From: Candidatus Poribacteria bacterium
GTDB taxonomy: Bacteria > Poribacteria > WGA-4E > WGA-3G
DNA length: 33,920 nucleotides
Direction of reading: 5' to 3'
NCBI GenBank assembly: GCA_022822215.1
Contig: JAJECD010000224.1
Location: forward strand, 1 to 33,920
The position numbers were made by a program, and so were the translations under genes. The notes beneath the pieces were generated by a model. That model made no database searches. It was given only the letters and a program-made list of their open reading frames with translations, and was not told where the DNA came from. Shown piece after piece: positions 1-27,610 of this stretch (position 1 is its first letter; every line of letters begins with the position of its first letter).

Positions 1-1703
1 TAGACGTAACCGCGACTCCCAAGCATAGCGATGGTGCAATTTTTGTGCAGACGGTCTCGGACTATCCGCTCGTAGAAGCGATTTCGCAAAATGTCGTCAA
101 ACACCCAGTCCTGCCCAATGCTGAAAGCAGAGCGAAACTTGTTGAACGCCAGAGCATAAAGTACACCGAGAAATACGCAGACTACCTCGACCTCGGTATC
201 ATTGAATGGCAAAAAGCAGCCGAAGAACACGAAAAAATGGGAAAGAAAGCCATCTTGTTTGTGATGACCGACAATACCCAGAACTGTGATGAGGTTGCAG
301 CGTATCTCGAAAGCCACTATCCTGCGCTCAAAGATGCAGTGTTAACAATTCACACCAATAAAAGCGGCGAAATCTCTGAAGCGAAATCCAGTAAAAAGCA
401 AGCAGAACTTAAGAAACTCCGTGAACAAGCGAATAAGATTGATTCACTGGAGAGTCCATACAAAGCGATTGTCTCGGTGTTGATGCTCAAAGAAGGGTGG
501 GATGTCAAAAATGTAACGACTATCGTCGGACTTCGTGCCTATTCCGCTAAAGCCAATATCCTACCCGAGCAGACCTTGGGACGCGGGCTACGTCTGATGT
601 ACGCTGGTACGGAGGAGGAAACCGTCAGTGTTATCGGCACCGATGCCTTCATGGAATTCGTCGAATCCATTAAATCAGAAGGCGTTGAATTAGAACGGCG
701 ACCCATGGGTGAAGGCACAAAACCGAAAGCACCTATCGTCATTGAGGTAGACAAAACAAATATCAACAAAGATATTGACGCACTCGATATTGAAATTCCG
801 ATACTCACGCGCCGCATCTACCGCGAGTACAAGAATCTGGCGAATTTAGACCCTACACATCTCAATTTTACGCCCGTTTCGTATCAGACATTTGGCGAAA
901 CAGAACTACGGGAAATTGTGTTTAAGGACATGACAACAGGCGAGGTTACACACACTACGGTGATGGATAGTAACGGAATCGCCGATTACCGCAGCGTGAT
1001 CGGCTATTTTGCAGAGACGCTTCGCAAGGACTTACGGCTCGTCAGCGGTTACGATGTCTTGTACGGAAAGGTTAAAGACTTTGTGCGGGATCAACTCTTC
1101 GGCGAGACGATAGCGTTGGCAGATCCCAACACCTTGCGAAATCTGGCAGAACTCCCTGCCACAAAAACCGTCATGGAAACCTTCAAGTATGCTATTAACG
1201 ACCTCACGATACAAGACAGAGGCGAGGCACAACTGAACGAGACAACACGTGCCCAAGACGCACGTCCCTTTATGGTGAAAGAGCAGGAATACCTAATTCC
1301 CCAAAAATCTGTATTTAACAGAATCACCGGTGACAGCCATTTTGAATTGGAATTCGCCGCATTTCTTGAAAGTTGTCCCGATGTCGCCTCCCACGCCAAA
1401 AACTACGCTGGAATGAATTTCAAACTTGATTATATCAATGCCGACGGCGACATCAGCAACTACTACCCGGATTTCCTCGTCAAGCTGACCGATGGACGCG
1501 TAATTGTTGCCGAAACTAAGGGGAGAGAAGATTTAGATGTACCCCGTAAGATGCAACGCTTATCGCAATGGTGTGAGGATGTCAATAGAGTTTCGCCAGA
1601 TGTTGATTATGATTTTGTCTATGTGGATCAAGAAAATTTTGACACGTATAGACCGCAAACATTTCAGCAACTGCTTGATGGCTTTATGGAATATAAGACC
1701 TGA
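1..1703 (+). CDS. Type III restriction-like Res subunit / DEAD-DEAH helicase with C-terminal nuclease-like domain, 5'-truncated by window edge
   Basis: Frame stays open upstream of the listed start (DVTATPKHSDGAIFVQTVSDYPLVEAI from nt 3); SF2 helicase motif VI-like LPEQTLGRGLRLM; C-terminal YPDFLVKLTDGRVIVAETKGRED resembles PD-(D/E)XK. Confidence 0.85.
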   Translation, partial: DVTATPKHSDGAIFVQTVSDYPLVEAISQNVVKHPVLPNAESRAKLVERQSIKYTEKYADYLDLGIIEWQKAAEEHEKMGKKAILFVMTDNTQNCDEVAAYLESHYPALKDAVLTIHTNKSGEISEAKSSKKQAELKKLREQANKIDSLESPYKAIVSVLMLKEGWDVKNVTTIVGLRAYSAKANILPEQTLGRGLRLMYAGTEEETVSVIGTDAFMEFVESIKSEGVELERRPMGEGTKPKAPIVIEVDKTNINKDIDALDIEIPILTRRIYREYKNLANLDPTHLNFTPVSYQTFGETELREIVFKDMTTGEVTHTTVMDSNGIADYRSVIGYFAETLRKDLRLVSGYDVLYGKVKDFVRDQLFGETIALADPNTLRNLAELPATKTVMETFKYAINDLTIQDRGEAQLNETTRAQDARPFMVKEQEYLIPQKSVFNRITGDSHFELEFAAFLESCPDVASHAKNYAGMNFKLDYINADGDISNYYPDFLVKLTDGRVIVAETKGREDLDVPRKMQRLSQWCEDVNRVSPDVDYDFVYVDQENFDTYRPQTFQQLLDGFMEYKT

Positions 1704-1779
1704 GACCTGCTTGTGGAAGGGTAGAAGCGATCTCCGAATCGCGACTAAAAACCTCCGAGCATTTATTTCTACACCGGTA

Positions 1780-1801
1780 GGCGAGGTTTCCTAACCTCGC
1801 C
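1780..1801. repeat. Palindromic REP-like element GGCGAGGTT-tcct-AACCTCGCC
   Basis: Perfect 9-bp inverted repeat with 4-nt loop in the intergenic gap; related sequence near 27620-27655. Confidence 0.6.
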
Positions 1802-1830
1802 GATCCTCCCTTAAAAAACCTGAAAACTCC

Positions 1831-1860
1831 TTGACATACCATACCAACTTACGTTAGAAT
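1831..1860 (+). promoter_or_regulatory. Predicted sigma70-type promoter upstream of the ParA-like gene
   Basis: TTGACA (1831-1836), 18-nt spacer, TAGAAT (1855-1860), about 50 bp before the ATG at 1909. Confidence 0.55.
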
Positions 1861-1908
1861 TTAAAGGGGCTTTCCACAAGTTTCTATTTTTTTAGAGGGG
1901 GTGGCATT

Positions 1909-2937
1909 ATGACTGCTTATGCATTTTGGAACAATAAAGGCGGTGTTGGCAAGAGTTTCTTAAGCTTTGTTGCAGCGACTGAGTATGCACATGCCTATCC
2001 AGACACCGATGTCTATGTGATAGACCTTTGCCCGCAGGCGAATGTCTCTGAGATGTTGCTCATTAATCCCGATGTGATTCATAAACTGATAGGGCAAACA
2101 CCCCGTGCAACTGTTGCAGGTTACCTTGAAGCACGGCTAAATTCCCCATTCCGTTCTCTCAAGGATGTGTCTCCCTATATATGTCGTCCGCGGGACTTCA
2201 ACGCCAAACTTCCAGTGAATTTACTTTTGGTGTGTGGCGATAATTTGCTGGAAATTCTATCCGAAGCAATTCGTCAAACATCTCAGTTCACGCTTCCAGA
2301 AGATGCATGGAAACAAGTCCTCAGTTGGATCAAAGATTTAACGATTGCGTTGCGTCAGCGGAGTGTCACCAGAGATACGCTCTTTATCCTTGATTGTAAT
2401 CCCAGTTTTGCTATCTACACCCAATTGGGACTCGTTGCAGCAGAAAATGTCATTGTGCCTTTTACACCCGATGACGGTTCGCGTCGAGCTGTGGAGAATG
2501 TTATCGCGCTACTTTATGGCAACGGTATGGGCAACCCAAATATAGAAACTTATGCCCAAATCAACTTTGCCAAAAGCGCGAAAGAGGAAGGTCTCGCGAT
2601 TCCAAAACTCCACACTTTTATTGGTAACCGCATAACACTTCATAAAGGCAGAGCAAGCAAAGATTTCGAGGTTGTGAGTGCCGCTATCAAGAAAACGCTG
2701 GATGCACTTCACAAAAAACATCGTCAAATTTACGCAACCCCGAAAGAGCTCCCAAGTGAAAGGTTTATAGAAATACCGGATTATTCCAGAGCCTGCACGA
2801 TGATGACAACAACCGGGACTCCCTTATATAACCTTCAACCCGGACTGAATAAGTTCCGAGGCAAGCAAGTCCAACTCGATCGCGAAGCATTGGAACGGTA
2901 TCAGGGTGCACTCGCCCATTTTGTGGCGTATCTTTAG
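1909..2937 (+). CDS. ParA/MinD-like P-loop ATPase
   Basis: N-terminal deviant Walker A NNKGGVGKSFLSF; VYVIDLCPQANVSEML resembles the ParA DxDPQxN region; GGGGGTGG upstream of the ATG; no ParB nearby. Confidence 0.85.
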   Translation: MTAYAFWNNKGGVGKSFLSFVAATEYAHAYPDTDVYVIDLCPQANVSEMLLINPDVIHKLIGQTPRATVAGYLEARLNSPFRSLKDVSPYICRPRDFNAKLPVNLLLVCGDNLLEILSEAIRQTSQFTLPEDAWKQVLSWIKDLTIALRQRSVTRDTLFILDCNPSFAIYTQLGLVAAENVIVPFTPDDGSRRAVENVIALLYGNGMGNPNIETYAQINFAKSAKEEGLAIPKLHTFIGNRITLHKGRASKDFEVVSAAIKKTLDALHKKHRQIYATPKELPSERFIEIPDYSRACTMMTTTGTPLYNLQPGLNKFRGKQVQLDREALERYQGALAHFVAYL

Positions 2938-2974
2938 AGGTTTTTTGTGGCATCACCCGCAGCATCAAAGCATA

Positions 2975-2987
2975 GCCCCAGCGGGGC
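2975..2987. repeat. Short palindrome GCCCC-agc-GGGGC (REP-like)
   Basis: 5-bp GC stem between the ParA and two-TM genes. Confidence 0.4.
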
Positions 2988-3040
2988 GAAATGTGTATCC
3001 TTAAAAAATTGTCTAAACTTTAGTGATGTCCTGATAAACT

Positions 3041-3508
3041 ATGAAACATCTTGAACGTATCGGTCCCGCGCTGCTACTTTTTTTCTCAATAGTTGTATCT
3101 GTTATTTTCGCATATACAGCGACACAGCGCACTTTGACCGGCTTAGAGAGTATGATTTGGCAAATTTTTGCCTTCGGTGCCGGACTTGCGGGTTCGTTTA
3201 TTTTCGGCCGTCAGTCGGCCCGTGAAGCAGCAACAGAAGTCATCAAGCCGTATGCTCGATCTGCGTTCCGACGACTTATCTTTCTTTATTTAACTCTTCG
3301 GAGGGCAGCAATAGCAGTAGAATTAGCACAACATTCAGAATCTCAAGAAAACTACCAAGTAATACTTGCACGGCTTGAAGAAATTATCGCTGCACAGCTA
3401 ATGACAGCAGATGATGCATTAGAGGATTGGAACGACATTGTTCCTGAAGATGTAGAAGAGTTAAAACAAAAACTCCAATCTGAAGATACAATGGAGGATA
3501 GAAAATGA
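3041..3508 (+). CDS. Small protein with two predicted transmembrane helices and a charged helical C-terminus
   Basis: Hydrophobic segments IGPALLLFFSIVVSVIFAYTA and MIWQIFAFGAGLAGSFIFG, then an E/Q-rich tail; ATGA overlap with the next gene. Confidence 0.7.
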   Translation: MKHLERIGPALLLFFSIVVSVIFAYTATQRTLTGLESMIWQIFAFGAGLAGSFIFGRQSAREAATEVIKPYARSAFRRLIFLYLTLRRAAIAVELAQHSESQENYQVILARLEEIIAAQLMTADDALEDWNDIVPEDVEELKQKLQSEDTMEDRK

Positions 3509-3909
3509 ATGAACCGATTCGTGGAAAAGTTGCCCAAGTGCTTAACGAACGAGAAATCGCAATAAATGTCGGAACTGAGCATGGCGTATATGTCGGCATG
3601 TACTTTGATGTGATAGATACTCAAGATGAAAAAATAAAGGATCCCGATACAGGCCAAGTGTTAGGATCTATTGAACGCGCGAAGGTCAAAGTACAGGTTA
3701 CACATGTTCAAGAGAAATTATCTGTAGCAACAACATACCAAGTCCAGAGAATGAATATTGGAGGAGATTTATTCACGAACTTTCTTATGCCACCTAAGTG
3801 GGTAGAAAAGTACGAAACATTGAGAATAAAAGATAAAGGCTGGTCTCCGCTTCGTGAGATAGACAGTTATGTAAAAGTTGGAGATCCCATTGTTCAAGCT
3901 GATTGGTAA
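3505..3909 (+). CDS. FlgT C-terminal-domain-like protein
   Basis: Pattern IRGKVAQVLNEREIAINVGTEHGVYVGMYFDVIDTQDEKIKDPDTGQVLGSIE..KVKVQVTHVQEKLSVATT resembles FlgT_C; translationally coupled to the two-TM gene. Confidence 0.7.
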   Translation: MNEPIRGKVAQVLNEREIAINVGTEHGVYVGMYFDVIDTQDEKIKDPDTGQVLGSIERAKVKVQVTHVQEKLSVATTYQVQRMNIGGDLFTNFLMPPKWVEKYETLRIKDKGWSPLREIDSYVKVGDPIVQADW

Positions 3910-3938
3910 ACAATTTGGAAATTGAAAGAAATAACACT

Positions 3939-6212
3939 ATGCCAAGACTCACAGACCAAGAACAACAAGAAATCATCCGATTTATCGAGGCAGACAAACC
4001 GCTGCCCGACAAATACCGCTTCCTGCTATTTGAAGACAAACGCGAGGTCGAACTCGTCTGGAACGGCAAAACCAACGAAGTCTGCAATAGCGTCCTCCCC
4101 TTTCAGACAATTGAGCAGGTGGACGAACCCCGGACCGAAAAAACCTCCGAAGACGACCTGCAACTTACGATGTTTGACGAACGCGGACGACAACTTAAGG
4201 GCTGGACAAACAAACTGATATGGGGCGATAACAAACTCGTTCTGTCATCCCTCAAGAACGGTCCACTGCGCGAGGAAATTGAATCACAAGGTGGACTTAA
4301 GCTCATCTATATCGATCCGCCTTTTGATGTAGGCGCGGATTTTTCCATGGATATCGAAATCGGTGATGAGACCTTTACCAAAGATCCCAATATCCTTGAG
4401 GAGATAGCCTATCGCGACACCTGGGGCAATGGAGCAGATTCGTTCATCGCTATGATCTATGAGCGGCTCAGTTTAATGCATGATCTACTCGCAAAAGACG
4501 GAAGTATTTATGTCCATTGTGATTGGCGGGTAAGTGGCTATATGAGATTGGTGTTGAATGAACTGTTTGGCAGAGATTTTTTTGTAAATGAAGTAATATG
4601 GCAAAAGATTAGATCATCAAAGGGACAAGCTAACGGATTTGGCAATGTCCACGATACAATCTACTTTTTTTCTAAAGGTTCCAACTATCTACATAATAAA
4701 CAATATACCTTACACGATCCAAAGCGGTTGGAGACCCACTACAATTTGATAGACGAAAAAACAGGTAAAAGATACCAACTTGCGGATTTCACGCAGAAGG
4801 GATCGGGTGAACCGAGACAGTTCGGTGATAAGGGACTTATGGCTCCTCCTCCTGGCAAACATTGGATTTGGTCACAAGAAAGAATTACTGAAGGGTTAGA
4901 GAAAAATTTAATAGTTTTCACGCAATCAGGGAAGCCGAGAGTAAAGAGATTCTTAGATGAATCCAAAGGGCAGCCTGTAGAGGATATATGGACTGATATT
5001 TATCCTATTAATTCACAAGCTAATGAAAGTATAGGTTACCCTACCCAAAAACCGGAAGATCTCCTTGAACGCATTATCAAAGCGTCTTCCAACGAAGACG
5101 ACCTTGTCGCTGACTTTTTCTGCGGCTCCGGCACGACTGCCGCCGTGGCTGAAAAACTCGGACGTAAATGGATTGCCACAGACCTCGGCAAATTCGCTAT
5201 CCATACGACCCGCAAACGAATGATCGGAGTCCAACGTCAACTAAAAGCAGACGGTAAAGACTACCGCGCCTTTGAAATCCTCAATCTCGGCAAGTACGAA
5301 CGTCAACACTACATTGGTGTCAATCCTAATCTACGCGAAGTTGAACAACAGAAACAATTGGTAGAGAAGGAAAAGGCATTCATTAACCTCATCTTGTGTG
5401 CCTACGCTGCAGAAAAGATCGAAGGATTCACCAGTTTTCAAGGTAAAAAAGCCGGGAGGCTTATCGCAATCGGTCCCGTCAATCTACCGGTAACGCGACA
5501 ATTTGTGGAAGAAATTATTTTTGAATGCCGCAAGCATCAGATTACGCGTGTAGACGTTCTCGGCTTTGAATTTGAGATGGGGCTGTTTCCCAACGTATTA
5601 GATGAGGCGAAAAGTGGAGGCATTGACCTTGCTCCCAAATACATCCCCGCTGACGTATTCGATAATCGCGCAGTCGAACAAGGTCAAGTTGTATTCCACG
5701 ATATGGCTTTTATTGAAGTCAAATCACATATCACGGCAGGCGAAAAAGACAAATCGGCAACGGTGTCAGTAGAATTGACCGACTTTTCCGTCTTTTACTC
5801 ACAGGACTCCATCTCCCACACCGAGCAGACGCTCAAGAACAGACGCAGTCGGATTGTGGTAGAGCAAGGGCAGGTCGTAAAAGTAAGCAAAGATGCAGAT
5901 GAGATTGTTAGTCGTGAAGTGCTAACGAAACACTGGACAGATTGGATCGACTACTGGTCTGTTGACTTTGACTTTGAGAGCAAACGCGAAATTATTCGCG
6001 TGCAAGACCCTGACACGGGTGAATGGTCAGAGCAGTGGACAGGTGATTATGTCTTTGAAAACGAGTGGCAGAGCTTCCGTACGAAGAAGGATCGCTCGTT
6101 AGAATTGACCAGCGTCGCCCATGAATGCCCTTCCGGTCGCCGCAAACTTGCTGTCAAGGTTGTAGACATCTTTGGGAATGATACGATGACGATTGTGGAG
6201 GTGGCGATTTGA
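3939..6212 (+). CDS. Type III-like (Mod) site-specific DNA methyltransferase, beta-class amino-MTase order
   Basis: Motif IV LIYIDPPFDVGADF precedes motif I VADFFCGSGTTAAVAEKLGRKWIATDLG; likely ATG at 3939 (MPRLTDQEQQE) rather than TTG at 3903. Confidence 0.9.
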   Translation: MPRLTDQEQQEIIRFIEADKPLPDKYRFLLFEDKREVELVWNGKTNEVCNSVLPFQTIEQVDEPRTEKTSEDDLQLTMFDERGRQLKGWTNKLIWGDNKLVLSSLKNGPLREEIESQGGLKLIYIDPPFDVGADFSMDIEIGDETFTKDPNILEEIAYRDTWGNGADSFIAMIYERLSLMHDLLAKDGSIYVHCDWRVSGYMRLVLNELFGRDFFVNEVIWQKIRSSKGQANGFGNVHDTIYFFSKGSNYLHNKQYTLHDPKRLETHYNLIDEKTGKRYQLADFTQKGSGEPRQFGDKGLMAPPPGKHWIWSQERITEGLEKNLIVFTQSGKPRVKRFLDESKGQPVEDIWTDIYPINSQANESIGYPTQKPEDLLERIIKASSNEDDLVADFFCGSGTTAAVAEKLGRKWIATDLGKFAIHTTRKRMIGVQRQLKADGKDYRAFEILNLGKYERQHYIGVNPNLREVEQQKQLVEKEKAFINLILCAYAAEKIEGFTSFQGKKAGRLIAIGPVNLPVTRQFVEEIIFECRKHQITRVDVLGFEFEMGLFPNVLDEAKSGGIDLAPKYIPADVFDNRAVEQGQVVFHDMAFIEVKSHITAGEKDKSATVSVELTDFSVFYSQDSISHTEQTLKNRRSRIVVEQGQVVKVSKDADEIVSREVLTKHWTDWIDYWSVDFDFESKREIIRVQDPDTGEWSEQWTGDYVFENEWQSFRTKKDRSLELTSVAHECPSGRRKLAVKVVDIFGNDTMTIVEVAI

Positions 6213-7750
6213 GAATAAGGTCCATACACTTGAAAGGTTTTAAGCGATTTGTGGACTTAACTATTAAAGGCATTCCCGATACCGCGAGACTCGTCATTTT
6301 GGTTGGTCCAAGTGGTAGCGGAAAATCATCTTTATTTGAAGCTATTAATGCTTGGGGCAAAGATCACAATGATAGCCGATATGATCCTGAATACTACAAG
6401 AGAGATGCACAACCGATGAATTCTAGGTCTCAGGAACACTTTAGCAATCTTGGCGTAACTATCATTGCTGATGACTCTCCCTCAAATCTGGGAGAAGCTT
6501 GTTATATCCGCTCAGCGTATCGGCATACCCCACAATTTAGCATTTCTAACATGGTAAAAATCGATGAAAGCGAGTATTGGCGATACTACGGAGAACGGAA
6601 TTTTTCCATGCCAGATAGTGAAGTAGAAAGAAATTATCAAAGAGTATACTGGCAAATAATGAAGGAAGTTTTTAACCCAAAAGAACGTACAAACACGGAT
6701 ATTAGGGAACAAGTCATAGGTTTGGTTCGTGATTCATTGCAATCTATTTTTCCTAATTTACGGTTGCATTCCCTTGATGATCCCGAAGGCAAAGGTACTT
6801 TCTATTTTGAGAAAGGAGGGGCTAAAAAGTATAACTATGTCAATTTATCTGGCGGTGAAAAAGCAGCTTTCGATTTATTACTTGATTTTATTGTCAGGAG
6901 AGAATATTATCTAAATGCAGCCATGTGTATTGATGAACCGGAAGGGCATATGGGGTTGAGTGCACAGGGCAAATTGCTTGAGGTGCTGTATACATTAATT
7001 CCTGAGAGGTCCCAACTTTGGCTTGGAACACATTCCATTGGGATTTTACGGGCATCGAAAAAAATTTTAGAAGAGAACCCCGGGACAGTAGTTTTCTTGG
7101 ATTTTTCCGGACACGACTTCGACCAAAAAGTAGAGATAATACCAATTACAAAGCCCGACCGTGAACTTTGGCAAAAACTCCATGAAAGTGTTTTGGAGGA
7201 CCTTTCTGGTTTGTTGGCACCAGAAAAAATAATTGTCTGCGAATCGGATCCAAATAGGGCAGCTTTTGATGCACGTTGCTACAATAAAATTTTCGCCAAA
7301 AATCACCCAGATGCTTTGTTTGTTTCTGCTGGCAGCAAATCGGAATTAAATAAAATCATTCCTGTACTTCAGGATGTCATACAAAAGGCAGAAATCTTCG
7401 TTGTACGAGATCGTGATGGCTTACTTGATGAAAGACGTAACGAGCTCATCCAAGAAGGAATCCGTGTTTTGAACCGCCGCAGCATAGAGGATTATCTTAT
7501 TGATCATGAGGTCCTGGACAAATTTGCTGATGACAAAGGCTTAGATGCCCGCCAATTACAGGAACTAAAAGACATCAACGGAAATAATGCTAAAGCGAGG
7601 GTCGGACAAATATATCAGAAAATTAGTAATGGATACCGTCTAATCGTTGGAGACGATAGAGAGGAATTTCTTTCGGATGTCCTTGCTCCTTTGTTCACCG
7701 AGGAGATGACTGTTTATAGAGAATTGGAGAACGATATTTTTGGGACTTAA
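6209..7750 (+). CDS. OLD-like ATPase-TOPRIM protein (putative nuclease)
   Basis: Walker A VGPSGSGKSS; signature NLSGGEKAAFDLLLDF; Walker B AAMCIDEPEGH; WLGTHS; C-terminal IIVCESD and VVRDRDG (TOPRIM E and DxD) and RRSIEDYLI; TTG start overlaps the Mod TGA stop. Confidence 0.8.
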   Translation: MRIRSIHLKGFKRFVDLTIKGIPDTARLVILVGPSGSGKSSLFEAINAWGKDHNDSRYDPEYYKRDAQPMNSRSQEHFSNLGVTIIADDSPSNLGEACYIRSAYRHTPQFSISNMVKIDESEYWRYYGERNFSMPDSEVERNYQRVYWQIMKEVFNPKERTNTDIREQVIGLVRDSLQSIFPNLRLHSLDDPEGKGTFYFEKGGAKKYNYVNLSGGEKAAFDLLLDFIVRREYYLNAAMCIDEPEGHMGLSAQGKLLEVLYTLIPERSQLWLGTHSIGILRASKKILEENPGTVVFLDFSGHDFDQKVEIIPITKPDRELWQKLHESVLEDLSGLLAPEKIIVCESDPNRAAFDARCYNKIFAKNHPDALFVSAGSKSELNKIIPVLQDVIQKAEIFVVRDRDGLLDERRNELIQEGIRVLNRRSIEDYLIDHEVLDKFADDKGLDARQLQELKDINGNNAKARVGQIYQKISNGYRLIVGDDREEFLSDVLAPLFTEEMTVYRELENDIFGT

Positions 7751-7842
7751 CTTAGAGAAATCGCCATAATATACAACAAATATACACACTTGCAGCTTTG
7801 TTTTCTAACTAAGTTCAGAGGACATTTTCTAAGGAGATAACC

Positions 7843-7929
7843 GTGTCGGAAAGTATTAGAATATCCATGTTTGAAGTCGTGGGTGATGATGTCGATGATG
7901 TAAAGACAATTGTAGAGGTATCCGTATGA
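7843..7929 (+). CDS. 28-aa ORF (MSESIRISMFEVVGDDVDDVKTIVEVSV) resembling the C-terminus of the upstream Mod
   Basis: GTG start with AAGGAGAT 5 nt upstream; stop TGA overlaps the ATG of the next gene (ATGA); tail DDVKTIVEVSV vs Mod NDTMTIVEVAI. Confidence 0.5.
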   Translation: MSESIRISMFEVVGDDVDDVKTIVEVSV

Positions 7930-9314
7930 GTCTGACAGTCCGCTTAAAAAACATTGGAATCCTAAAACAGGCAGAGTTTTCACTAGGCGACTTGACGCTT
8001 ATCTGTGGTGAGAATAACACTGGTAAGACCTACGCGACTTATGCTCTGTACGGTTTCTTGCAGTCTTGGTCGAGATTTAGCCCTATTCAGATTAGTGAGG
8101 ATCAGATTCGTAATTTACTTACACATGGCACTTTTGAAATTGAGTTGACACAATACGTCGAACAGGCAAATCAGACGCTTATAGATGCATGCAAGAGATA
8201 TCCTAAGCAATTGGATGAGATCTTTGCAGCACCTGAAGACACTTTTCACAACAGCAAGCTCCACATTGATATCGGCGAAAATAACCTACGTAATAGAGAA
8301 ATCAATGGAAAAATCAGGACCACGCAAGAGGGAAATTTTAACTTTTCAAAGCACATAGGTAGCGAAATCCTAACAGTTACGATAGAGATGGAAAAAGAGA
8401 AAAGAAAAATTGATTCGCATTTTGCAAGAATGTGCGTTGAACTTGCTATTCTCCGTGCTTTTTTTTCCGATGCTCTTCCTCGACCTTTTATATGCTCAGT
8501 TGAGCGGACAGGCGCGGCTATTTTCCGCAAGGAACTTAATTTTGCCCGGAACCGACTGCTTGACCAGATCGCAAAGACGAACCAAAAAGTGGATTCACGT
8601 GAACTTTTATTTGAAGGGTACCAAAATTACCCATGGCCAGTAAAGACTAATGTTGACTTTACGCGCCAACTTGAAGACATTGCGAAAAGTAAAAGTTTCA
8701 TCGCTAAAGAATATCCTGAAATATTAGATGACTTTACAGACATTGTTGGTGGCACATACACCATTACACAAAATGATCAACTCTACTATATCCCCAAAGG
8801 TACGCGACCATTGACGATGGTTGAAAGCTCAAGTTCTGCACGCGCCCTCTTAAACCTCAGTTTTTATCTCAATTGTATTGCCCAAAAAGGCGACCTGCTG
8901 ATGATAGATGAACCCGAATTAAGCCTGCACCCCGAAAACCAACGCCGTATCGCTAGGCTTTTTGCACGACTCGCGAACATAGGCGTTAAAGTCTTCGTAA
9001 CCACTCATAGCGACTACATCGTCAAGGAATTGAATACACTCATCATGCTCAACCACGACAAACCTCACTTGAAAAGAGTTGCTGAAGAAAATGGCTATCA
9101 GGATAACGAGTTAATTAACGCCGATCAGGTTAAAGTGTACATAGCGGAAGAAGCGTTAATGCCGTTAGAAGAAGGTCAGAAAAGACGAAGAAGGGGACAT
9201 ACGCTTGTACCTGCCGATATTGATCCCGAGTTCGGCATTGAAGTCGGTAGTTTTGACAAAACAATTGATGATATGAACAGGATTCAGCGCGACATCGTGT
9301 GGGGAGCAAAGTAA
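7926..9314 (+). CDS. SMC/ABC-type AAA family ATPase
   Basis: Walker A CGENNTGKTYATYAL; signature-like ESSSSARALLNL; Walker B LLMIDEPELSLHPENQ; VFVTTHSDYIVKEL. Confidence 0.88.
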   Translation: MSLTVRLKNIGILKQAEFSLGDLTLICGENNTGKTYATYALYGFLQSWSRFSPIQISEDQIRNLLTHGTFEIELTQYVEQANQTLIDACKRYPKQLDEIFAAPEDTFHNSKLHIDIGENNLRNREINGKIRTTQEGNFNFSKHIGSEILTVTIEMEKEKRKIDSHFARMCVELAILRAFFSDALPRPFICSVERTGAAIFRKELNFARNRLLDQIAKTNQKVDSRELLFEGYQNYPWPVKTNVDFTRQLEDIAKSKSFIAKEYPEILDDFTDIVGGTYTITQNDQLYYIPKGTRPLTMVESSSSARALLNLSFYLNCIAQKGDLLMIDEPELSLHPENQRRIARLFARLANIGVKVFVTTHSDYIVKELNTLIMLNHDKPHLKRVAEENGYQDNELINADQVKVYIAEEALMPLEEGQKRRRRGHTLVPADIDPEFGIEVGSFDKTIDDMNRIQRDIVWGAK

Positions 9315-9877
9315 GATTAGTGAACGACATTACCGTATTACAAGAGATGCTCAATGCTGATCCCCAAGTTCCGTTACAACAAAGATCAGGGAAGTATTTC
9401 GTTACACTAACAGACAAACAAGCAAATACAACCGTAGAAATCACAGATCTTCCGCACGACTCAATTGTTATAAGAGCAGAGGCTTTTGAGCCTTCCAACG
9501 TTTTTAAAGGTTTAAAAGGTGAACGCAGACGGGCTGATTTCGTCATTGTGTCGAATACCGAAAATGAAAATTGGATTATCTGTATTGAAACACAGGCAGG
9601 AACAGGTAAAGATCCAGAACATGTTGAACAACAATTGAGGGGCGCGGAATGTTTTATCGGCTACTGTAAATGTATTGGGAAATCCTTCTGGCAATCAGAA
9701 AATTTTCTTGATGTCTACCAGTACAGGTTTGTAAGTATTGTAAACATTAACATTGACAAGCAAACCACGCGCTTCTATAAGCCCGGAAGCCAGCCCAAAA
9801 AGAAGTTGCATGACAGTCCTGAAAATTTCCAAGAAATCCAAGGACATCAAAGTCTCCATTTCAATCAACTGACTTGA
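9299..9877 (+). CDS. PD-(D/E)XK-like small protein, probable partner of the preceding ATPase
   Basis: RRADFVIVSNTENENWIICIETQAG...VEQQLRGAECFIGYC resembles D-Xn-ExK plus QL helix, with Q in place of K; overlaps the ATPase 3' end. Confidence 0.5.
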   Translation: MGSKVRLVNDITVLQEMLNADPQVPLQQRSGKYFVTLTDKQANTTVEITDLPHDSIVIRAEAFEPSNVFKGLKGERRRADFVIVSNTENENWIICIETQAGTGKDPEHVEQQLRGAECFIGYCKCIGKSFWQSENFLDVYQYRFVSIVNINIDKQTTRFYKPGSQPKKKLHDSPENFQEIQGHQSLHFNQLT

Positions 9878-9948
9878 TAATATATCTCGACAAAGTAACC
9901 ATCACTGACACAGCAGCAACTGTATCTTTAAACCGAACGGTATAAACA

Positions 9949-10227
9949 ATGGAAGAACCGATAAACCGTACAAAAATCCCACAGATCGACTCAATTCAAG
10001 AACTTGCCCGCTTCTGGGATACACATGATTTAACCGATTTCGAGGACGAACTTGAGGAAGTACCAGAACCCGTTTTTGAATTGCTAACCGAACTTACTGT
10101 TCCCTTAGAACCCGAAGAATTTGAGGCACTTAGCGCACTCGCCAAGGCACATAACACCTCTCCTGTGAATCTGGTTCGAGAGTGGGTCATTGAACATATT
10201 GAAGCTCCATCAGAATCGACAACTTAA
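9949..10227 (+). CDS. CopG-type antitoxin-like protein, no toxin gene adjacent
   Basis: IQELARFWDTHDLTDFEDELEEV typical of CopG_antitoxin proteins, plus RHH-like C-terminal helices. Confidence 0.75.
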   Translation: MEEPINRTKIPQIDSIQELARFWDTHDLTDFEDELEEVPEPVFELLTELTVPLEPEEFEALSALAKAHNTSPVNLVREWVIEHIEAPSESTT

Positions 10228-10249: not shown

Positions 10250-11125
10250 ATGCTACACACAAACGAAACATCTATCGACTTAGACTGGCACCCACTCTCC
10301 GACGAAGATATACGCCATTTCGACAACAACGGCTATCTCATCGTCCGGAATGTACTGGACTCAGATACCATAGGCGGACTCATTGAGGCAAGCGATCGAC
10401 TCATGGCGAGCGATCGGCGCGAGAATCGTCAACAAAATTTCGACAAATTATACGACAGTTTCCGAAATTCTATCTCCATTGACGATGCCTTCATTCCGCT
10501 ACTCACGCAGAAGACCATCCTCCCTGTTGTCGTCCAACTGCTCGGTGCGCACTTGCAGCTTATGACCTCACACCTCATATACAAACACCCGGATCCGGAA
10601 GGTACACCTGATACTACTCGCAGACCCGGTTGGCATCGCGACTACGCTATGGCAACGACAACACACGGCAACAAGGTGCCACGCATCTTGCTAAAATGTG
10701 CATATTACTTCACCGATCTGAGTGAACCCAATTCCGGCGTAACACTTGTCGCCCCCGGCAGCAACCACCTCCTTGAACGGGTTCCCATTCCAAAAGGACA
10801 AGCGGATCCCGAAGGTGCGCTCGAAGCGAGTTTACAACCTGGGGATTGCTTGCTGTTTGAGAATCGTACTTTTCATGCGGGGGCTGCGAACTTAACCGAC
10901 CAGATCCGTAAAGGTATAATGATCGGCTACGGTTACCGGTGGTTGATGCCGATGGATTATCGGACGCAGGAACAGACGTTGTTAGATAAACTCACGCCAC
11001 TTGAGCAGTATTTGGTGGGTGAACCCTTCACGAAAACGAAAGAATTTATTCCCAGTGGTAGCGAAAGTCCCCTCGCAGCGTGGTGTGAACAACACGGCAC
11101 ACCAGCAGTGAGACCGGTTTCTTAA
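10250..11125 (+). CDS. Phytanoyl-CoA dioxygenase (PhyH) family protein
   Basis: FDNNGYLIVRNVL start; GWHRDY HxD motif; distal FHAGAANLTDQIRKGIMIGY. Confidence 0.85.
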   Translation: MLHTNETSIDLDWHPLSDEDIRHFDNNGYLIVRNVLDSDTIGGLIEASDRLMASDRRENRQQNFDKLYDSFRNSISIDDAFIPLLTQKTILPVVVQLLGAHLQLMTSHLIYKHPDPEGTPDTTRRPGWHRDYAMATTTHGNKVPRILLKCAYYFTDLSEPNSGVTLVAPGSNHLLERVPIPKGQADPEGALEASLQPGDCLLFENRTFHAGAANLTDQIRKGIMIGYGYRWLMPMDYRTQEQTLLDKLTPLEQYLVGEPFTKTKEFIPSGSESPLAAWCEQHGTPAVRPVS

Positions 11126-13641: not shown

Positions 13642-13782
13642 GCATCCTCATGCTTCCACTGGCGGAGCCATCAATACCCAACTAAACCTGGCACCGTAAC
13701 TGTTGCCGGAAATTTAGGTGAAGATGCAACACCTGGGATGCACAACAGTGTTCTCAAGCAAGCAGGACTTAAGAATCGATAG
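13642..13782 (+). pseudogene. hicA: HicA toxin C-terminal remnant
   Basis: Reads ...HWRSHQYPTKPGTVTVAGNLGEDATPGMHNSVLKQAGLKNR*, like HicA (GSHHQY.HP..PG.VTV..H..D..PGTL.SILKQAGL); in-frame stop at 13627 and no N-terminal half. Confidence 0.7.
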
Positions 13783-13792
13783 GAGTCAATTT

Positions 13793-14050
13793 ATGCAGTA
13801 CGTTGTTATTTTTGAAAAGGGCGAAAATAGTTACGGTGCTTATGTACCAGATCTCCCCGGCTGTGTCGCAGCAGCAAAAACGTTAGACGAAGTGCAGATA
13901 TTGATTGCGGAAGCTATTGAATTTCATATTGAAGGATTGCGAGAACACGGGGAAGCCATCCCTCCTCCATCACCACTGTCAGATATTCAAGGAACGCTGC
14001 TTGAATCGTCTCAACATCTATTTCCAGCTTTAATCACGGCAACAGCCTGA
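13793..14050 (+). CDS. hicB: HicB-family antitoxin
   Basis: MQYVVIFEKGENSYGAYVPDLPGCVAAAKTLDEVQILIAEAIEFHIEGLREHGEAIPPP; AGGAG before ATG 13793. Confidence 0.85.
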   Translation: MQYVVIFEKGENSYGAYVPDLPGCVAAAKTLDEVQILIAEAIEFHIEGLREHGEAIPPPSPLSDIQGTLLESSQHLFPALITATA

Positions 14051-27097: not shown

Positions 27098-27610
27098 TTA
27101 ATTTACGGTGTTAACAGCATGTTCGGTCTTGCGCGCTTCCATCTCTTGCCGCAACGCTTCAATCTGTTCGTGCTGCGCTTCGATTTGTTTTTGCTGCGCC
27201 TCAATTTTCTCGTCTTGTGCCCGTTGGTGTTTTCGCTGCGTCGCAACGATGATTTGCGGTATCCCTACAACAACACCAATAAAAGCAACTAACACTATAA
27301 CCAGCCCGAAGATCTGCTCCAACCGCTTGTCCATCTCCGAGATTGTCATATTAACAATCTTAATTTCTTGAGAGACGTATTCGCGCATCCGCTTTTCAGA
27401 GGCAGTAATCTCTGTTTTCGTCCGCTTTTCAGCGGCAGCGATCTCTGCTTTCATCCGCTTTTCAGAGGCAGCAATCTCTTCTCTAACGATAATGCGGACA
27501 TCCTCTCTAAGCAGCGTGCGGATTTTTTCAAAATCCTCCAAGCTGAGTTCGCTGGATGCTGGCATAGCCCAAATCAATAAACTGAGGCTTAAAATTAGTG
27601 TCAACCGCAT
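27098..27610 (-). CDS. Coiled-coil protein with signal peptide and TM segment
   Basis: MRLTLILSLSLLIWAMPASSE leader; repeated EIAASEKRMKAEIAAAEKRTKTEITASEKRM; TM IFGLVIVLVAFIGVVVGIPQIIVA; Q/E-rich tail. Confidence 0.7.
   Translation of the reverse strand: MRLTLILSLSLLIWAMPASSELSLEDFEKIRTLLREDVRIIVREEIAASEKRMKAEIAAAEKRTKTEITASEKRMREYVSQEIKIVNMTISEMDKRLEQIFGLVIVLVAFIGVVVGIPQIIVATQRKHQRAQDEKIEAQQKQIEAQHEQIEALRQEMEARKTEHAVNTVN
27389..27487 (-). repeat. Three 33-nt tandem repeats encoding 11-aa units
   Basis: ccgcttttcagaggcagtaatctctgttttcgt and two near copies at 27422 and 27455. Confidence 0.8.

Follow-up and report, generated by a model that had tools for sequence, protein, structure and literature searches.

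Several described defence systems bear on the locus reported here. PARIS consists of AriA, an OLD-ABC ATPase, and AriB, a TOPRIM protein of the DUF4435 type, and single-gene fusions of the two are known; its hallmarks are activation by an anti-restriction protein and cleavage of tRNA. A dyad of a ParA/Soj-type ATPase and a HEPN protein (MAE_18760 HEPN) was predicted as a toxin–antitoxin pair in 2013 by Anantharaman et al. (PMC3710099). Studies have shown that PARIS forms a second line behind restriction–modification (R-M) and BREX (PMC9122126), and that BREX loci carry OLD-ABC, TOPRIM, restriction endonuclease (REase) and HEPN backup effectors (PMC12839542). In this study, we analysed a stretch of 33,920 nucleotides from a Candidatus Poribacteria bacterium, a member of a sponge-associated group (JAJECD010000224.1; hereafter the window); the stretch is contig C110 of a metagenome-assembled genome (MAG; 4.3 Mb, 422 contigs, 84% complete) and opens with eight co-directional genes around a type III R-M pair. 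Judging from the sequences, we believe that these genes probably include a layered anti-phage block, in which a type III R-M core has recruited backup effectors. The locus is mostly made of known parts in a new architecture, a modular R-M hub with an independent neighbour system. The eight genes are as follows.

3..1703, plus strand: Res, restriction subunit of a type III system, last 566 aa, which comprise the helicase part and a nuclease region at the C-terminus; PADLOC REase_III 2.8e-20, NCBIfam BPTD_3080 5e-42
1909..2937, plus strand: ParA/Soj-type ATPase; AAA_31 3e-11
3041..3508, plus strand: protein with two predicted transmembrane helices (2TM), 155 aa; no family match above cut-off
3505..3909, plus strand: FlgT_C-like small beta-barrel protein, 134 aa; Pfam FlgT_C 4.7e-5, below cut-off
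3939..6212, plus strand: Mod, beta-class type III DNA methyltransferase; MTase_III 1.8e-108, N6_N4_Mtase 1.3e-44
6209..7750, plus strand: PARIS-like AriAB fusion (OLD-family ABC ATPase and TOPRIM/DUF4435-like region); PADLOC AriAB 1.5e-27, DUF4435 0.0014
7926..9314, plus strand: PDC-M47A / PD-T4-4_A ABC-ATPase; PADLOC PDC-M47A 3.5e-198, PD-T4-4_A 2.8e-157
9299..9877, plus strand: PDC-M47B, predicted nuclease partner of M47A; PADLOC PDC-M47B 7.8e-58

The first-pass annotation had described positions 1–10227 as eight co-directional genes in this order, with a type III R-M core whose Res lies upstream of Mod across three other genes and which is expanded with defence-like genes. Family searches and fold comparison bore out the order, the family assignments and the expanded core, but the end at 10227 belongs to a ninth open reading frame (ORF). 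Many of the genes were also said to overlap or lie close together. Overlaps of 4 nt (2TM/FlgT_C-like), 4 nt (Mod stop and the TTG start of the AriAB-like gene) and 16 nt (M47A/M47B) agree with this, but gaps of 205 and 175 nt separate Res from ParA and the AriAB-like gene from M47A, respectively. An overlap between the FlgT_C-like gene and Mod arises only with a Mod TTG start (3903); with the ATG at 3939, close to where homologues start, the two genes are 29 nt apart.

Res combines an SF2 helicase with a C-terminal PD-(D/E)XK nuclease region; the part in the window matches REase_III and BPTD_3080, and the endonuclease/TnsA-like matches of its C-terminus are weak. Its N-terminus is missing from the window since the contig start cuts the gene. 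Residues 1–321, with the GTGKT Walker motif region and a 91% match to a relative, form the last coding stretch of contig C123, immediately behind a thioredoxin-domain gene. The two pieces do not overlap and are separated by a gap of a few codons, and full-length Res of close relatives has approximately 893 aa; the gene is interrupted by the assembly only. The omega of Res was 0.06–0.12 in pairs with the window. Mod carries S-adenosylmethionine (AdoMet) motif I (FCGSGT), catalytic motif IV (DPPF) and a hypervariable target-recognition domain (TRD) at approximately residues 230–380, numbered from the TTG at 3903, and has relatives in the PDB. Among relatives, the TRD is 4–41% identical, against approximately 75–97% across most other Mod regions: the TRD is swapped between relatives. 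No phase-variation repeats were found in mod. The usual adjacent arrangement with mod first is not seen here: Res comes first, with a 2.2 kb gap that holds three genes. Adjacency with mod first is a feature of gene order and no biochemical requirement. The MAG as a whole is rich in R-M genes, with eighteen N6_N4 methyltransferase family matches, some of them fragments.

Close relatives of Mod and Res were present in 31 and 30, respectively, of the 85 genomes of the phylum. The first-pass annotation had asked whether the gene order recurs, and it does: Res precedes Mod in the same orientation at 20 other Poribacteria loci, 21 with the window, a count that leaves out the very distant G065 (21% Res). 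Res and Mod are 0.6–3.4 kb apart, and genes lie between them in 20 of the 21 loci. The cargo of this slot comprises FlgT_C-like genes (14 loci), 2TM (12), ParA (12), HEPN (9), a second membrane protein (5) and Mrr-type REase (2). This recurring order exceeds chance. More distant relatives, two rhizobial plasmids with approximately 72% identical Res among them, are Mod-first with Res directly after it; the nearest of the Mod-first relatives are G035, G013, and Aminobacter and Sinorhizobium plasmids. The Res-first arrangement looks derived, because the Mod-first loci can occupy one side of a branch in the Res tree, with weak support. It may have arisen, as one possibility, through a tandem Mod duplication and a subsequent loss; G029 carries a duplicated FlgT_C-Mod unit. 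Our literature search, in partial coverage, turned up no type III locus described as arranged in this way. The copy of the locus in G083 (L095) has decayed to terminal pieces of Res and fragments of Mod, with ParA and HEPN intact.

The exchange positions sit inside the R-M gene pair and behind it. Between the window and G070, Res is 93% identical, whereas the slot cargo is unrelated (ParA-2TM-FlgT_C-like versus a lone Mrr-type REase), and no DNA is shared from the Res stop to approximately 12 bases before the Mod start. In relatives, the genes that follow Mod are of the AriAB-like, GHKL, STAS (DUF4325) or PIN-like kind. At L067, L074, L076, L096 and other loci, the AriAB-like gene is replaced or followed by genes for GHKL ATPases and STAS-like DUF4325 proteins, in some cases along with a PIN-like gene, and these GHKL and STAS proteins had no PADLOC match. 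In L081 (G023), a 382-aa gene that we judged by eye to be TnpB-like lies in the slot between HEPN and Mod. The whole block occupies a chromosomal hotspot flanked by the thioredoxin-domain gene and a PhyH gene. These flanks are nearly adjacent (an empty site) in six sister genomes, enclose M47A/B alone in five, and enclose the full block in others.

The 2TM and FlgT_C-like proteins appear to form an undescribed R-M-linked membrane module of no known family. The Res-Mod slot holds 17 of the 20 strong FlgT_C-like copies and 14 of the 21 2TM copies. Both proteins evolve fast, with median omega values of 0.44 and 0.34. In 2TM, the second predicted membrane helix runs into a long cytosolic helix and the tail is helical; the structure model is all-helical, with low confidence (pTM 0.37). 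No 2TM relatives were found in IMG/VR, and a viral origin of 2TM was dropped for that reason. The AlphaFold2 (AF2) core of the FlgT_C-like protein reached a pLDDT of approximately 82–96, and its best fold matches were the LPHT ring and the FlgT C-terminal region. We did not assign it to the exported FlgT flagellar/LPHT ring proteins: the fold matches, but the Pfam score is below threshold and no signal peptide is evident at the N-terminus. A PDB sequence search with its profile gave no useful match. Our best guess is that the pair serves as a membrane effector or anchor.

Behind Mod, the AriAB-like protein keeps E345 and D401 invariant. In its subfamily, every one of the eight full-length copies begins at the Mod stop, as does a ninth that is truncated at the edge of a contig; more distant relatives are located elsewhere. 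In G060 (L079), Mod and the AriAB-like gene have become one frame of 1225 aa through a clean in-frame deletion; an assembly error is possible for this fusion, and a single-base slip does not account for it. By analogy, a second-line role is likely for this gene, because of the PARIS precedent (PMC9122126) and the BREX backup modules (PMC12839542).

Placement, overlap and this one fusion suggest coupling between the modules, and they bear on the view that the locus is a plain defence island, whose hotspot is shared since insertions are tolerated there and whose modules each act alone with no coupling to R-M. M47A/B standing alone at the site, the quick turnover of cargo, and ParA-HEPN pairs that lie well away from R-M (in Caldilineaceae, Thiomargarita, Alphaproteobacteria and viral contigs) agree with such an island. 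We nevertheless consider it somewhat unlikely, given the concentration of FlgT_C-like genes in the slot and the AriAB-like subfamily that always abuts Mod; moreover, the loci of G079 and G060 lie at other chromosomal sites and still have an R-M core that carries cargo in the slot and at the tail. A stronger form of coupling is also conceivable, in which this type III R-M lineage would have the 2TM/FlgT_C-like pair and the AriAB-like protein as its own dedicated partners. The guarded sensor would then be Mod, or Mod-Res; when inhibited or failing, it would directly set off the AriAB TOPRIM nuclease and the membrane effector, a new guard-type R-M with exchangeable effectors. We put this forward tentatively and regard it as unlikely.

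The ParA gene has a different history. Behind ParA, relatives from Poribacteria, Caldilineaceae, Thiomargarita, two Alphaproteobacteria and three viral contigs encode a HEPN protein whose R-x4-H motif is invariant. No useful PDB sequence match was obtained with the HEPN profile. The window has ParA only; HEPN is absent from the window and from its own genome as assembled. Phylum-wide, 16 of 16 HEPN copies adjoin ParA, and ParA occurs without HEPN in 4 genomes, including that of the window. The tree needs four changes for HEPN, three of them forced by supported branches, which gives at least three independent losses and a best estimate of four. The orphan ParA has an omega of about 0.10–0.13 (about 0.10–0.12 for the ParA of the window) and stays under purifying selection without HEPN. 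Because of the repeated losses and an omega near 0.1, ParA is useful without HEPN, either because it serves as an antidote or because it has gained another partner. Given the HEPN neighbour in relatives, we do not favour a role in plasmid or chromosome partition. No HEPN adjoins the 36–38% ParA relatives found on plasmids of Enterobacteria (phage-plasmid-like) and Acinetobacter, of which the Acinetobacter relative has DUF4747 as its neighbour; the wider ParA family therefore has other partners.

These losses would also fit an addiction or immunity function, in which ParA is a kept antitoxin against the HEPN toxins of incoming elements and the 2TM/FlgT_C-like pair is similar selfish cargo that stabilizes the R-M locus. 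The prediction of ParA-HEPN as a toxin–antitoxin (PMC3710099), the one-sided losses with selection on ParA, and the presence of the dyad in viral contigs all speak for it. However, 4 against 0 is a small sample, HEPN toxin activity is only predicted, and the orphan ParA is followed by 2TM and FlgT_C-like genes in 4 of 4 cases, so that a new partner may exist. We think this explanation unlikely. One relative has 2TM-FlgT_C-like ahead of ParA-HEPN; because of this and because ParA usually adjoins the HEPN RNase, ParA and the 2TM/FlgT_C-like pair are two separate cassettes.

The joint membrane/ParA module of the first-pass annotation was accordingly given up. The annotation had also placed OLD/AAA effectors after Mod, which holds for the OLD-like gene, a PARIS-like fused AriAB. 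The last two genes are the full-length ATPase A and adjacent partner B of the stand-alone PDC-M47A/B, an already catalogued two-gene candidate system that shares the hotspot; it is separate because it also occurs without R-M at the same site. An undescribed multigene system thus gives way to the modular hub with an independent known candidate system beside it. That annotation had named two outcomes adverse to its proposal: genes that do not co-occur beyond this genome, or that each belong to a separate known system. The genes do co-occur elsewhere, and several belong to separately known systems. A single integrated machine that needs all eight genes together, as their co-directional, compact and recurrent order might evoke, was rejected as hardly credible, since the modules occur separately (M47A/B and ParA-HEPN exist alone) and no other locus read has the exact gene set of the window; the nearest, G082, has STAS as an extra gene, and at least one module is missing from most loci.

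For the layered block, the activities and the order of action that we infer are as follows. Mod would methylate host sites, and Mod with Res would cut unmethylated invading DNA, while TRD exchange between relatives would bring turnover of specificity. Recruited second-line modules would occupy two cargo positions, the Res-Mod slot and the place directly after Mod; in the window the cargo is the orphan ParA, the 2TM/FlgT_C-like membrane pair and the Mod-overlapping PARIS-like ATPase-TOPRIM gene. The most likely task of the ATPase is to sense infection or a disturbed R-M complex; it would then free the TOPRIM nuclease, leading to growth arrest. The pair would most likely act as an inner-membrane effector or anchor, a weak inference. 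M47A/B, further downstream in the hotspot, would defend independently as an ATPase-nuclease system.

Several points weigh against the layered block. The best stretch of the PADLOC AriAB match covers positions 265–549 of the 694 of the profile, the DUF4435 match reaches 18.8 bits against a cut-off of 27, and no PARIS chain was matched in the PDB sequence search. EcoPI, a type III system, was not affected by T7 Ocr, the known PARIS trigger (PMC10149784), so that a trigger of the Ocr kind cannot be taken for granted. The slot could be a mere insertion-tolerant position without functional coupling. A single transcript is not established, because the two gaps of 175–205 nt are genuine, and they leave the operon limits uncertain. 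The best promoter-like match (11/12) lies at 1831–1860, immediately upstream of ParA; promoter-like matches overall in the window were no more frequent than in shuffles, and no RNA families were found in it.

Two features complete the right-hand side of the locus.

9949..10227, plus strand: CopG/RelB-type antitoxin-like orphan ORF; Pfam CopG_antitoxin 3.1e-5, below cut-off
10250..11125, plus strand: PhyH (phytanoyl-CoA dioxygenase family), right-hand chromosomal flank of the hotspot; PhyH 1.8e-19

The CopG/RelB-type ORF is rare in relatives and is no conserved member of the locus. Just beyond the hotspot, a HicB-like antitoxin gene lies at 13718–14050, and at 27155–27479 tandem repeats of 21 bp and 33 bp fall within a 184-aa minus-strand ORF without a Pfam match.

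The layered block would extend to type III R-M the built-in backup effectors of epigenetic defence loci, a principle that descriptions have to date covered in BREX and type I R-M. The natural series of loci with the same core, different cargo and empty sites allows direct tests of coupling, and the repeated loss of HEPN with a conserved ParA makes the 2013 toxin–antitoxin prediction testable. Compared with the ParA/Soj-HEPN dyad (Anantharaman et al. 2013), the relatives likewise have ParA immediately upstream of an R-x4-H HEPN, but their HEPN scores as Pfam RiboL-PSP HEPN, and the window has lost HEPN and kept ParA. M47A and M47B resemble PD-T4-4 / PDC-M47 (ABC-ATPase and nuclease; WonAB relatives) in full-length matches and adjacent order and differ in nothing essential; they merely share the hotspot. 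Like PARIS, the AriAB-like protein joins an ABC ATPase and a DUF4435/TOPRIM-like region and matches PADLOC AriAB, whereas its DUF4435 score is weak and its subfamily is tied to a type III Mod, once by fusion. The core shares with type III R-M (EcoP1I, EcoP15I; BPTD_3080 Res family) the beta-class motifs and hypervariable TRD of Mod, the helicase and C-terminal nuclease regions of Res, and the linkage of the two genes, but the 21 Poribacteria loci have Res ahead of Mod, set apart by a gap that is usually filled with cargo. As in BREX and BREX-related loci (PMC12839542), a core epigenetic system and recruited OLD-ABC/TOPRIM, REase and HEPN modules meet in one locus; in contrast, the core here is a type III R-M, with exchange positions within and behind the R-M pair.

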